Assembly (NCBI RefSeq): GCF_004368405.1
Contig: NZ_SBJH01000080.1
Span: 1-55,079 of the forward strand
Direction of reading: 5' to 3'
Origin: Olivibacter sp. XZL3
Lineage (GTDB): Bacteria > Bacteroidota > Bacteroidia > Sphingobacteriales > Sphingobacteriaceae
Length of the DNA: 55,079 bases
Below the pieces are notes generated by a model. It had not been told where the DNA came from, did not search any database, and saw only the letters and a list, made by a program, of their open reading frames with translations. Both the position numbers and the translations under genes were made by a program. Positions 27,297 to 36,003 of this stretch are shown in pieces; the stretch's first letter is position 1, and each line of letters opens with the position of its first letter.

Positions 27297-28337
27297 ATGA
27301 ATTTCCCTAAAGATAACGGTTATTTCTTTCCCGCCGAATGGCACCAACACCGCGCAACTTGGTTAAGCTGGCCGCACAAAGAAGCAAGCTGGCCTGGAAA
27401 AATAGAAACGGTATATAAACCCTATTGCCAATTTATCAAGGCGGTATCGGCAGGAGAATTGGTCTGTATCAATGTCGGAAGTGAACAACTGAAGCAGGAG
27501 GCGACTGAACATCTCGCCAAAGAGGGGGTAGACCTAAGTAAGGTCCTGTTTTTTGACCACCCCACGAACGATGCTTGGTGCCGGGACCATGGCCCAGCTT
27601 TCCTGATTAATCCACATGCTGATATTCCCAAAATCATCGTCGACTGGGGATATAATGCCTGGGGCGGGAAATATCCGCCATTTGAATTGGATGATGTTAT
27701 ACCAACATTGGTCGGCAAAGCCTTAAACCTCCCCGTTGTGCACCCCGGGATTGTCATGGAAGGGGGCTCGGTAGATTTTAACGGCACAGGCACCTTATTA
27801 ACCACTACGTCTTGCTTATTAAATCCGAATCGAAACCCGCATTTAAATCAACACGAAATAGAAACATATCTTTATCGGTATTACGGTGTGGAGCAAGTAC
27901 TATGGTTGGGTGACGGTATCGCAGGAGATGATACAGATGGACATATTGACGATATAACCCGCTTTGTAAATGATAGCACGGTGGTCACCGTGATAGAAGA
28001 GAATAAAGCAGACGAAAACTATGAGCCTTTACAAGACAACTTGAACCTGCTGAAGGAAATGCGCTTACTCAACGGAAAACAGCTGGATATTGTCGAGTTA
28101 CCCATGCCTTCGGCCGTTATTCACGAAGACCAAAGGCTACCAGCCTCTTATGCCAATTTTTATATCAGCAATGCTGCCGTCGTCGTTCCTACTTATCGCG
28201 ATAAGAATGATCAAAGAGCACTCGACATCTTAACGGATTGCTTTCCGAACCATGAAGTGATAGGAATTGACAGTACCGACGTGATTTGGGGGCTCGGAAG
28301 CTGGCACTGCTTGAGCCAACAAGAGCCTGCGGTTTAA
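27297..28337 (+). CDS. aguA: Agmatine deiminase
   Basis: AguA converts agmatine to N-carbamoylputrescine and ammonia; it belongs to the guanidine-modifying pentein fold. The 346-residue protein has PAEWHQHRATWLSWPH, the active-site WCRDHGPAF, the DDTDGHIDDITRF motif, and the catalytic cysteine in SWHCLSQQEPA near the C-terminus. I chose ATG 27297, one base after the aguB stop; a start 15 bp earlier would overlap aguB. With aguB it forms the two-gene route to putrescine. An 8-bp inverted repeat (28322-28351) surrounds the stop codon but lacks a T-run. Confidence 0.96.
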   Translation: MNFPKDNGYFFPAEWHQHRATWLSWPHKEASWPGKIETVYKPYCQFIKAVSAGELVCINVGSEQLKQEATEHLAKEGVDLSKVLFFDHPTNDAWCRDHGPAFLINPHADIPKIIVDWGYNAWGGKYPPFELDDVIPTLVGKALNLPVVHPGIVMEGGSVDFNGTGTLLTTTSCLLNPNRNPHLNQHEIETYLYRYYGVEQVLWLGDGIAGDDTDGHIDDITRFVNDSTVVTVIEENKADENYEPLQDNLNLLKEMRLLNGKQLDIVELPMPSAVIHEDQRLPASYANFYISNAAVVVPTYRDKNDQRALDILTDCFPNHEVIGIDSTDVIWGLGSWHCLSQQEPAV

Positions 28338-32918: not shown

Positions 32919-33833
32919 TCACCAACTAATAGCTTGATAGGCTCCCGGCGTTATGCCTTCGTACTTCTTGAAAACCCGGCAAAAATAATGCAAGCTATTG
33001 AACCCGGCTTCAAAACAAGCCTCTTTAATAGAACTGTCGGGTGTGGTCAAGAACTTTTTGGCTAAGCGGATTCGCTCACGAATAACAAACTCGACGGGAC
33101 TTAATCCTAGCTCTTTTTTGAAAGCCCTGAAAAACACCGACTTACTCATTCCCACCTTCGAACACAAATCGTCAATATGTAACTGATCCGCAAGGTGCGA
33201 TCGTATATACTCAACAACAAAGCTAATCTTTCCGCCGCCGTTCAACCTGGGCTCTTTGTCAAGTAAAGCCAATTGCTGTGTTTGCATTATCCGGATCAAT
33301 AACTCCTTTAAGGTAAGATCAGCTAAAACATCCTTATGAATCTCATCGCTTGTTCCGATCGCTATGAGTCTGTTGATGGAGGCCGACAATGCTACATTAT
33401 TAATAAAATGATAGTTCCCGAAATCCAGATTCCATTGCCGATGTCCTCCCAGTGGATGCTGTTCGTTTAAATAATCGATTGTTTGTATAATTTGCTGCCT
33501 ATCAATAGCCAAGGCCGTGCATTGTGTGGGTTCTTCCATACTAGCCGTGGGAAAATCGATTAACATCCGAACATTCGGTGGAACGATCACCGTTTCCCCA
33601 GGCAGATAATCAAATCCGGGCTGGTTAAAAAGATGCATTACTTTCTTACCTCTCAACATACTGGTAATAACCAGGTCGCTAAACTGCAGCGACACACTAT
33701 GGCTTGTCTGGTAAGTTTCGAAGACATTTAACTCGCAATTATTCATCGTATAAGCCCGCCTATTCTCGACACTGGCTTTTAGCTCGCTCTCCGAACTCAA
33801 ACGCATGGGATGTAACGACTGCTTTTTTTGCAT
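32919..33833 (-). CDS. AraC family transcriptional regulator
   Basis: This 304-residue regulator has an N-terminal AraC_N-type domain (DYLPGETVIVPPNVRMLIDFP) and a C-terminal double HTH from about 205: LHIDDLCSKVGMSKSVFFRAFKKELGLSP and the second helix pair ending FEAGFNSLHYFCRVFKKYEGITP in parts. It is divergent from the aldehyde dehydrogenase gene. The same trio (AraC, aldehyde dehydrogenase, DUF779) occurs in other bacteria, so it probably controls the dehydrogenase in response to an aldehyde or its precursor. The effector is unknown. Confidence 0.9.
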   Translation of the reverse strand: MQKKQSLHPMRLSSESELKASVENRRAYTMNNCELNVFETYQTSHSVSLQFSDLVITSMLRGKKVMHLFNQPGFDYLPGETVIVPPNVRMLIDFPTASMEEPTQCTALAIDRQQIIQTIDYLNEQHPLGGHRQWNLDFGNYHFINNVALSASINRLIAIGTSDEIHKDVLADLTLKELLIRIMQTQQLALLDKEPRLNGGGKISFVVEYIRSHLADQLHIDDLCSKVGMSKSVFFRAFKKELGLSPVEFVIRERIRLAKKFLTTPDSSIKEACFEAGFNSLHYFCRVFKKYEGITPGAYQAISW

Positions 33834-33925
33834 AACATTATAATTGGGTGCTATTCAAACTTACGGATTTCCTGCGACTTCGCAAATTGCTAATAAGCGC
33901 TCGCAGGTTTTGCGCTTTTAAAAAA

Positions 33926-34333
33926 GGAACATTTTTCTTAACAGTTTTTCAATTTGTGTTACTTTCTTCCGCAGAAAGTAACCAAAGACTCATCGCTTGG
34001 AACTTTGCTACGATGGAAGTGCTTCAACTTGCATGCCGCAAACTTCCTAGGCGATATTTTAGCGGAACGGAGAGTTCTTACTTTTAACCGGACGTATTAG
34101 CTCTAGCTTTAACTATGGGCCTGTGTGGGGGAAAAATGGGCCTTGGAGGATATCGAAGCAACGAGCAGCAAAGCATTTGCACGTATGTTCCTATTGCAGT
34201 ATCGAAGCGGATTGAGGAAGTGAAACGGCTCCAATACGCGCCATGAATGCTTTGCCATCAGGTGCAAGGTAGCCTACACCGCCTTAATTTTGCTCAACTT
34301 TTATCAAGAAAAGTTGATTAGGAAAAATGTTCC
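33926..34333. mobile_element. MITE-like palindromic element between AraC and aldehyde dehydrogenase genes
   Basis: The 667-bp gap holds a 408-bp block bounded by a perfect 12-bp inverted repeat (GGAACATTTTTC at 33926-33937, GAAAAATGTTCC at 34322-34333), with weaker similarity inward for about 14 more bases. Inside each end is a hairpin: a 10-bp stem at 33958-33982 (GTTACTTTCT/AGAAAGTAAC, 5-nt loop) and an 8-bp stem at 34295-34316 (CAACTTTT/AAAAGTTG). A further perfect 10-bp pair, GCAAAGCATT at 34168-34177 and AATGCTTTGC at 34246-34255, lies in the centre. No gene is seen inside. This is the build of a non-autonomous interspersed repeat. A target duplication is not evident, so age and family remain open. 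The last 160 bp before the dehydrogenase carry its promoter. Confidence 0.6.
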
Positions 34334-34450
34334 CTTAATATAAACATCTTGGTATGTTAAAGCAAAATCCCTGTAGGCACTCGCAGATGTGATGACAGGA
34401 TTGTTCAACAGTAAGAGAACATAATGCAATAGAAACCCGATTGCTGTACT

Positions 34451-34500: not shown

Positions 34501-36003
34501 ATGGCGCGTGTTGAAAAACCTACATTCAAAGAGCGATACGATAATTTCATCGACGGTAAATTCGTTCCACCCGTGCAGGGAAAATATTTTGACAATATTT
34601 CGCCGATAGACGGCAAGGTGTTTACGCAGGCGGCACGGTCCTCCAAAGAAGACGTAGAACTCGCTTTGGACGCGGCCCATAAAGCCTTCAAAACCTGGAG
34701 CAAGACTTCTGCTGCCGAACGCAGTAATATCCTATTGAAAGTTGCTCAAAAAATAGAAGACAACTTACCGTACCTGGCTGCGGTAGAGACGATCGATAAC
34801 GGAAAAGCGATCCGCGAAACACTTAATGCCGACCTCCCCTTAGTGGTTGATCACTTCAGATATTTTGCCGCAGCAATACGTGCTGATGAAGGCACCATAT
34901 CCGAGCATGACGAAAACACGGTTAGTATTAACCTCCATGAACCAATCGGCGTTGTTGGACAAATTATTCCTTGGAATTTTCCCCTCTTGATGGCAACATG
35001 GAAAATCGCACCGGCTTTAGCTGCAGGCTGCTGTACGGTGGTTAAGCCGGCCGAACAGACACCGGCGTCCATTATGGTTTTAATGGAATTAATAGGCGAT
35101 CTGATCCCGCCGGGCGTATTAAACGTTGTAAACGGATATGGAATTGAGGTCGGAAAGCCATTAGCTTCCTCGCCAAGAATATCGAAGGTAGCCTTTACCG
35201 GAAGTACTACATCAGGTAGGCTGATTATGCAATACGCAGCAGAAAACATTATTCCTTCTACCATGGAGTTAGGAGGAAAGTCGCCCAATATATTCTTCAA
35301 ATCGGTGACAGATGCCGATGACGACTATCTCGACAAAGCGATAGAAGGGGCGGTTCTATTTGCCTTAAATCAAGGTGAGGTCTGTACCTGCCCATCGCGG
35401 ATTTTGATACAAGAAGATATTTACGACACGCTGATGCCTAAGATCATCGAGCGCACGAAAGCCATAAAAATCGGTCATCCATTAGATACGGATAGCATGA
35501 TGGGCGCACAAGCTTCTAATGAACAATTTGAAAAAATCAAATCCTACCTAGAAATAGGTAAAAGCGAGGGTGCAGAAGTGATTGTAGGTGGCAATGTAAA
35601 CAAGCTTGCAGACGGCTTGGAAGAAGGTTATTATATAGAGCCAACCATTTTTAAGGGACATAATAAAATGCGGATTTTCCAAGAAGAGATATTCGGGCCT
35701 GTTGTATGCGTCACCACATTCAAAACCGTAGAAGAAGCTATTGAAATTGCGAACGATACACTATACGGCCTGGGTGCCGGCGTCTGGACGCGGGATGCTC
35801 ACGAGCTTTACCAAGTCCCGAGGGCGATACAAGCAGGAAGGGTTTGGGTTAACCAATACCATGCCTACCCCGCCCACGCACCATTTGGAGGCTATAAAAA
35901 GTCCGGATTTGGTCGCGAAAACCACAAAATGATGCTCGACCATTATCGACAAACAAAGAATATGCTTATATCTTATAGCAAACAAAAATTAGGCTTCTTT
36001 TAA
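34501..36003 (+). CDS. NAD(P)-dependent aldehyde dehydrogenase
   Basis: This 500-residue cytoplasmic enzyme oxidises aldehydes to acids. It has the ALDH landmarks [20 protein letters not shown] at 157-176, FTGSTTSGR at 232-240, the general base E256 in MELGGKSP and the nucleophile C295 in [10 protein letters not shown]. The pattern fits the AldB/ExaC-like group that acts on acetaldehyde or similar small aldehydes. It is followed 55 bp later by a DUF779 gene and faces an AraC regulator; the three are a known association. An 8-bp GC-rich hairpin (GGGCGGGA/TCCCGCCC, 36024-36042) lies between it and the DUF779 gene. Confidence 0.94.

Follow-up and report, generated by a model that had tools for sequence, protein, structure and literature searches.

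The intergenic element and its parts

The window analysed here is a stretch of 55,079 nucleotides from the soil bacterium Olivibacter sp. XZL3 (contig NZ_SBJH01000080.1). The element described below lies in it between two divergent genes, named from the reading of their translations: an AraC-type regulator on the left (32919-33833, minus strand) and an aldehyde dehydrogenase on the right (34501-36003, plus strand). The list of open reading frames of at least 80 amino acids holds none within the element, in agreement with the preliminary description, which had seen no gene inside. That description had also placed the element between divergent promoters; the divergence of the neighbouring genes stands, but a scan of this region for sigma-70-type promoters returned one site against 1.7 expected in shuffles, the promoters of Bacteroidota being of another type. 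From the outside inwards, the order is an outer hairpin repeat, here called O, whose two arms differ in length, then the 12-bp terminal repeats, a module L, a linker and a module R. The terminal inverted repeats GGAACATTTTTC (33926-33937, plus strand) and GAAAAATGTTCC (34322-34333, minus strand) match each other perfectly over their 12 bp and are enclosed by wider inverted arms of 26 nt (33916-33941 and 34318-34343, 81% identity). Repeat O, which is absent from the preliminary description, borders the inverted ends on their outer sides, left and right: its short arm (TTTTGCGCTTTTAA), followed by an A-run, occupies 33908-33925 on the left and recurs beside other copies, and its long arm (CTTAATATAAACATCTTGGTATGTTAAAGCAAAATCCC) occupies 34334-34371 on the right.

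The L module (33958-34085, plus strand) consists of a hairpin with a TCCGC loop, then ACTC, then a long stem-loop. The arms of its terminal hairpin (33958-33982) lie at 33958-33967 and 33973-33982 and form 10 of 10 pairs around a 5-nt loop, and the long stem-loop (33992-34055), which holds helices 3 and 4 of the L alignment, is closed by ATCGC (33992-33996) and GCGAT (34051-34055). The linker from L to R (34086-34139) is the gap between the two covariance-model matches. The R module (34140-34317, plus strand) comprises a multi-helix domain, an upstream motif and a terminal hairpin. Its central helix, formed by GCAAAGCATT (34168-34177) and AATGCTTTGC (34246-34255) with 10 of 10 pairs, is helix 3 of the unfitted R alignment and spans 34168-34255 together with the part that it encloses. 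The terminal hairpin (34294-34317) has arms at 34294-34302 and 34309-34317 with 9 of 9 pairs and a 6-nt loop, ATCAAG (34303-34308), whose partner is the upstream motif, CTTAAT in the window (34283-34288), helix 6 of the R alignments; here five of the six loop-motif pairs can form, the remaining one being a mismatch of A34286 with C34305. The covariance models match the window at 33958-34085 for L (model R1, E 3.5e-26) and at 34140-34317 for R (model R2, E 1.1e-45), values which are approximate after a brief calibration and which concern a copy that is itself one of the 40 rows of R1 and one of the 38 rows of R2. The palindromes first reported, namely the 12-bp ends, both hairpins and the central 10-bp pair, are all present, and the folding of the stretch is stronger than that of dinucleotide shuffles as RNA of the plus strand (z -4.56), as DNA of the plus strand (z -2.96) and as RNA of the minus strand (z -3.75), with none of 100 shuffles as good in each of the three tests. 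What the preliminary description missed is the larger context, in which the hairpins are pieces of two bigger folded modules.

Copies, ends and exchange of modules

The element is repeated within its genus. BLAST returned 14 matches in its own genome (G000), the window copy and fragments included, and 48, 26, 2 and 0 matches in the four other Olivibacter genomes (G002, which is O. jilunii, G001, G004 and G003, respectively), while a 32-base element pattern was found in 22 stretches of genome contigs, 21 from O. jilunii P8502 and one from O. domesticus DSM 18733. Within 400 kb of O. jilunii chosen regardless of content, the L model matches strongly at five places (E of 2e-16 or lower), which are those of the five strong BLAST copies; a further four, weak L matches (E 0.018 to 0.18) overlap or adjoin these. 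At the window site, the same divergent gene pair is found in G003 and G004 with no element between the genes; the flanking genes have no match in G001 and G002, so the comparison covers two of the four congeners. The distance from start codon to start codon, with starts read by eye, is 667 bp in the window, 183 bp in G004 and about 320 bp in G003, and both element-free relatives have retained a block that precedes the dehydrogenase gene at about 34398-34435. L022 and L109 form a second pair of presence and absence. G226 is without the R element that G307 carries at the orthologous place, in a spacer too diverged for the junction to be read. The element is thus not a single copy conserved at one site, because it is multi-copy and its site is element-free in two of four congeners. 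The many copies, the empty sites, the lack of an internal open reading frame and the insertion in either orientation between genes bear out the earlier proposal of a non-autonomous interspersed repeat.

When read from the inside to the outside, L and R follow a common plan, in which a domain is followed by a hairpin and then by the terminal repeat. The modules are paired as L with R in the window, as R with R' in L171 and as L with L' in L024 and L052, and insertion occurs in either orientation. The terminal sequence varies among copies, yet both ends covary: in 30 copies, chosen by eye for two legible ends, the match between a copy's own left and right ends was 6.93 of 8, against 6.03 when permuted (p 5e-5), although the two ends of many copies do not fully match. 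End hairpins are exchanged whole, and so are module types. Copies L009 and L023 share 96.8% identity over 316 bp, but their right hairpins and terminal repeats differ, and in all four pairs of orthologous sites inspected between O. domesticus and O. jilunii the modules are different; in one of these pairs (L016 and L052) the element is inverted and the junction on one side is identical.

Both the element's ends and its targets consist of A and T runs, with no clear target duplication. Repeat O was found in two of the five Olivibacter genomes, G000 (3 matches) and G002 (23 matches), and the inner element sits after CTTTTAA of O, in either orientation. At two loci of G002 (L147 and L167), O stands without the inner element and forms a hairpin that has TTTTAA at the end of its stem, where the inner element is located in other cases. 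Several copies within O have TTAA on both flanks and others lack it (read by eye), a pattern indistinguishable from blunt insertion into TTTT/AA.

Smaller elements were also seen in and around these copies. Inserts of about 50 nt, which belong to one family (CC-hairpin-...TCATGAACACCTTTAAAAATAAACAA..GTGAATAA), occupy A-runs within L and R modules and point either way, with hosts that include L036, L041, L013, L034, L038 and L040 (G001 and G002); in the 400-kb sample, three of the four matches to their profile fell within elements. Targeting of hairpin tips by these nested inserts was considered and rejected: targeting of A-tracts explains them equally well, since, as read by eye, the inserts meet their hosts at A-runs of the insert's own strand. 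L007 and L008 (contigs C88 and C114 of G000) contain a different small palindromic element, which has the ends ATGACTATCGG and CCGATAGTCAT and encloses an L-type hairpin. A composite transposon was likewise rejected, as neighbouring inverted copies flank apparently ordinary host genes. At L101 (2654-3001 and 6517-6864), 115-aa open frames with FLRKKVTK-like tails cross elements, and gene callers may therefore report spurious small proteins at such places.

Covariation and range of the modules

The pairing of the R module is retained while its letters change. A pattern search yielded 51 R modules, and 38 of them were used; truncated and duplicate modules were set aside, as were those in which an insert separates the motif from the hairpin. 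In their alignment by MAFFT, which is blind to structure (A1), 94.0% of the cells pair and both partners change at 20 of the 47 R pairs; the covariation score of 0.279 compares with 0.103 for shuffled alignments (0 of 500 as high as the real one) and with a maximum of 0.080 when the structure is slid. A cross-genus alignment fitted to the model (A3; 46 rows, five from Olivibacter and genus g4, some weak) gave 93.3% pairing, changes on both sides at 42 of 47 R pairs and a score of 0.581 against 0.148 when shuffled (0 of 500) and a maximum of 0.106 when slid. The letters of the R terminal hairpin are almost wholly replaced between copies and the pairing is retained. The six-base loop of this hairpin is complementary to six bases directly upstream, most commonly as CTTGAT with ATCAAG, and motif and loop variants change together (CTTGAA/TTCAAG, CTTGAC/GTTAAG, CTTGAC/GTCAAG, CTTGGC/GCCAAG), with at least one broken loop pair each in L032, L039, L040 and others of the 38 rows of A1. 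Nine R modules from eight genomes of other families in the class follow the same rule, eight with 6 of 6 loop pairs and one (L276) with 5 of 6. To judge from the geometry, the loop pairing and the hairpin stem may not coexist, because no bases lie between them, and the loop-motif pairing would thus likely represent either two exclusive states or a kissing contact between copies.

The evidence for L is of the same kind. The alignment of 40 of the 43 L modules found (A2) has changes on both sides at 15 of 27 L pairs and a covariation score of 0.253, against 0.133 when shuffled (0 of 500) and a maximum of 0.126 when slid; for one of the five measures applied, further pair types, the shuffles did as well (233 of 500). 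The TCCGC loop of L is constant and has no upstream partner of the R kind. A pairing of this loop with a downstream GCGGA fits the window and fails in other copies, and was rejected.

Both modules extend beyond the genus. Model R2 found R in 173 of 300 order genomes, in 11 of 17 genera, and in 74 of 235 genomes of the class, seven of the 74 being of the own family; 127 of the 300 order genomes had no match at the threshold used, and G003, of the own genus, had neither an R nor an L match. L was found in 143 of the 300 genomes of the order and in 5 of 395 genomes of a sample of the phylum, all five of the own family. With 8 to 11 candidates scored per genome, copy numbers in these searches are lower bounds. 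Tandem arrays occur for R (starts at 27331, 27675, 28019 and 28385 on G314:C37 and at 60599, 60985 and 61366 on G017:C7) and for L (starts at 237806, 238012 and 238218 on G068:C19); the latter locus (L071, G068:C19:237806-238348) carries three tandem L modules 206 bp apart, then an R module. Searches of phages and plasmids gave no match.

Rfam release 15 returned for the window region only three vertebrate or plant microRNA models, all under the gathering threshold (E 0.052 to 0.99), and no family on any module of 16 further loci at E 0.1. A match to Flavo-1 (RF01705; 51.7 bits, gathering 42) lies at 915-1002 of L190, with an R module some 500 bp away. Flavo-1 and Pedo-repair (RF01715) are structured RNA candidates described from Bacteroidetes (PMC2864571), and the element shares with them the phylum and the structured character; it differs in that no Rfam family matched the modules. 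A literature search, with thin coverage of subscription journals, found no repeats of this description in Sphingobacteriaceae.

The nature of the element

We interpret the window stretch as a non-autonomous interspersed element of two foldable modules, placed tail-outwards between complementary ends and defined by its fold, a reading that we favour at somewhat better than even odds (a probability of roughly 0.55). The folded form, whether single-stranded DNA or RNA, would be what is recognised during spread, and the enzyme would act in trans, encoded outside the element; if the folded form is recognised, selection would therefore retain the pairing and not the sequence. The conserved, covarying fold is the main feature of the element and is foreign to the definition of a MITE. 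In plan the element is like a REPIN, but it lies outside the REPINs by its tag and its enzyme, and a place among the MITEs in the strict sense is not supported.

The preliminary description had called the element MITE-like, and the label holds in that the element is short, non-coding, dispersed and inverted-ended; it does not hold for the ends, which are not one fixed sequence and change together. A classical MITE would have arisen by deletion from a DDE insertion sequence, whose transposase would move it via its terminal inverted repeats, with the folds as by-products. The length, the inverted ends, the many copies and the A/T-rich targets agree with such an origin, and the TTAA flanks of several copies within O, seen by eye, could be a 4-bp duplication, which would look the same as a blunt insertion into TTTT/AA. 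Bacteroidota also offer precedents that share with the element the short, non-coding, inverted-ended and multi-copy form: a MITE of Cardinium derived from IS982, its known parental insertion sequence (PMC9769881), and a MITE in Porphyromonas (PMC4596501). Where the MITEs of Bacteroidota have a known parental insertion sequence, however, none was met for the element in the loci read, and it is the fold that is conserved instead of the end sequence. As for the transposase with the same ends that the preliminary description had looked towards, the intervals read between two pairs of neighbouring copies held no open reading frame bearing these ends. Since the terminal sequence is variable and covaries between the ends, and since covariation extends deep into both modules, we consider a classical MITE unlikely.

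The element may instead be compared with REPINs, which are described as extragenic, dispersed, inverted doublets of hairpin units, also found in tandem and thought to move as a folded strand (PMC3116915). Inverted doublets of hairpin modules, extragenic position, dispersal and tandem arrays are common to both, and would be accounted for if the element were moved by a REP-associated Y1 transposase (RAYT). The units differ, being about 130-180 nt with several helices and, in R, a pairing of the loop with an upstream motif, against hairpins of 20-40 nt in a REPIN, and the GT[AG]G or CGTC-type foot is missing at both terminal hairpins of the window copy. Among the 300 order genomes, R and Y1 occur together in 133, R only in 40, Y1 only in 33 and neither in 94, a co-occurrence which is confounded by genus and could be attributable to genus alone. 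Against such a partner, Y1 (PF01797), the transposase family searched genome-wide, has no match in G000, G001, G002 and G004 and a single match in G003, so that no enzyme could be linked to the element; the copy-rich Olivibacter genomes (G000, G001 and G002) have no Y1 and hence no RAYT gene. A Y1/IS200 partner was therefore rejected for present-day Olivibacter, and an IS200/IS605-derived (PATE-like) element likewise lacks its Y1 transposase in these copy-rich genomes. No module lies within 1.5 kb of the 20 best Y1 genes, though all 20 are class-1-like and none has the REP-type signature. Among the Y1 loci scanned for that signature, only L124 was positive (G003:C15:28486-28725; NHVH ... YLHQNP), a REP-type gene in an Olivibacter genome without L or R. 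An ad hoc Y1 profile found nothing in other loci but also missed the known gene of L124 and is thus insensitive. The TnpAREP genes of subclass 2.6 in Bacteroidetes are described as flanked by atypical secondary structures that are copied elsewhere in the genome (PMC6006769); by description, the element resembles these structures in phylum, in genome copies and in the lack of GT[AG]G, and the one REP-type gene met is unlike that neighbourhood in that its genome carries neither module. Movement by a RAYT is, on these grounds, quite improbable.

The modules might also be a structured RNA family with a cellular role, as a small RNA or a cis-element, which has been duplicated and for which mobility is secondary. 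R is conserved across the class, and in its inner helices G-U exceeds A-C on the plus strand. The unfitted A1 has 27 to 6, a bias of the kind that selection of the plus strand as RNA would leave; the fitted alignments point the same way (36 to 2 in A3, with 9 of 46 rows dropped, and 10 to 1 in A4), although fitting favours G-U. The R terminal hairpin (11 to 9) and the pairing of its loop (4 to 5) are without such an excess, and in L the bias is either reversed or lacking (5 to 13 in the long stem, 17 to 21 in the hairpin). An RNA form of the plus strand is therefore suggested only for the inner part of R, because the excess is confined there. The position relative to genes speaks against a cellular role. 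Among the Olivibacter copies, 53 of 58 were classified: 17 stand in tandem with the sense of the element, 15 in tandem against it, 16 between divergent and 5 between convergent genes. For 25 R modules of other genera, the counts are 8 in tandem with, 8 convergent, 5 in tandem against, 2 divergent and 2 unclassified, and the upstream gene has the same sense in 16 of the 23 classified. This lack of an orientation rule toward genes does not suggest a terminator or leader role, which was rejected. With no promoter or terminator found, and with the family absent from G003 and from the 127 order genomes at the threshold used, we regard a primarily cellular RNA as unlikely.

Extended beyond the window, the reading of an element defined by its fold becomes more tentative. 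R and L, domains of about 180 nt and 130 nt that end in a hairpin, may possibly constitute an undescribed, class-wide repeat family, in which any two modules set tail-outwards would form a mobile unit with ends recognised by shape; recognition by shape would let the letters drift while the pairing stays. On this view the G-U excess of R on the plus strand would point to an RNA step, in which a transcript may, for example, guide or template its own spread. If this were true, a large share of the scattered intergenic repeats of Bacteroidia would be one fold-defined family that is missing from Rfam. The pairing of R would be directly testable by mutation, recognition of shape would be separable from recognition of sequence in bacterial repeats, and the covariance model would provide the means to seek the responsible enzyme by co-occurrence and neighbourhood.
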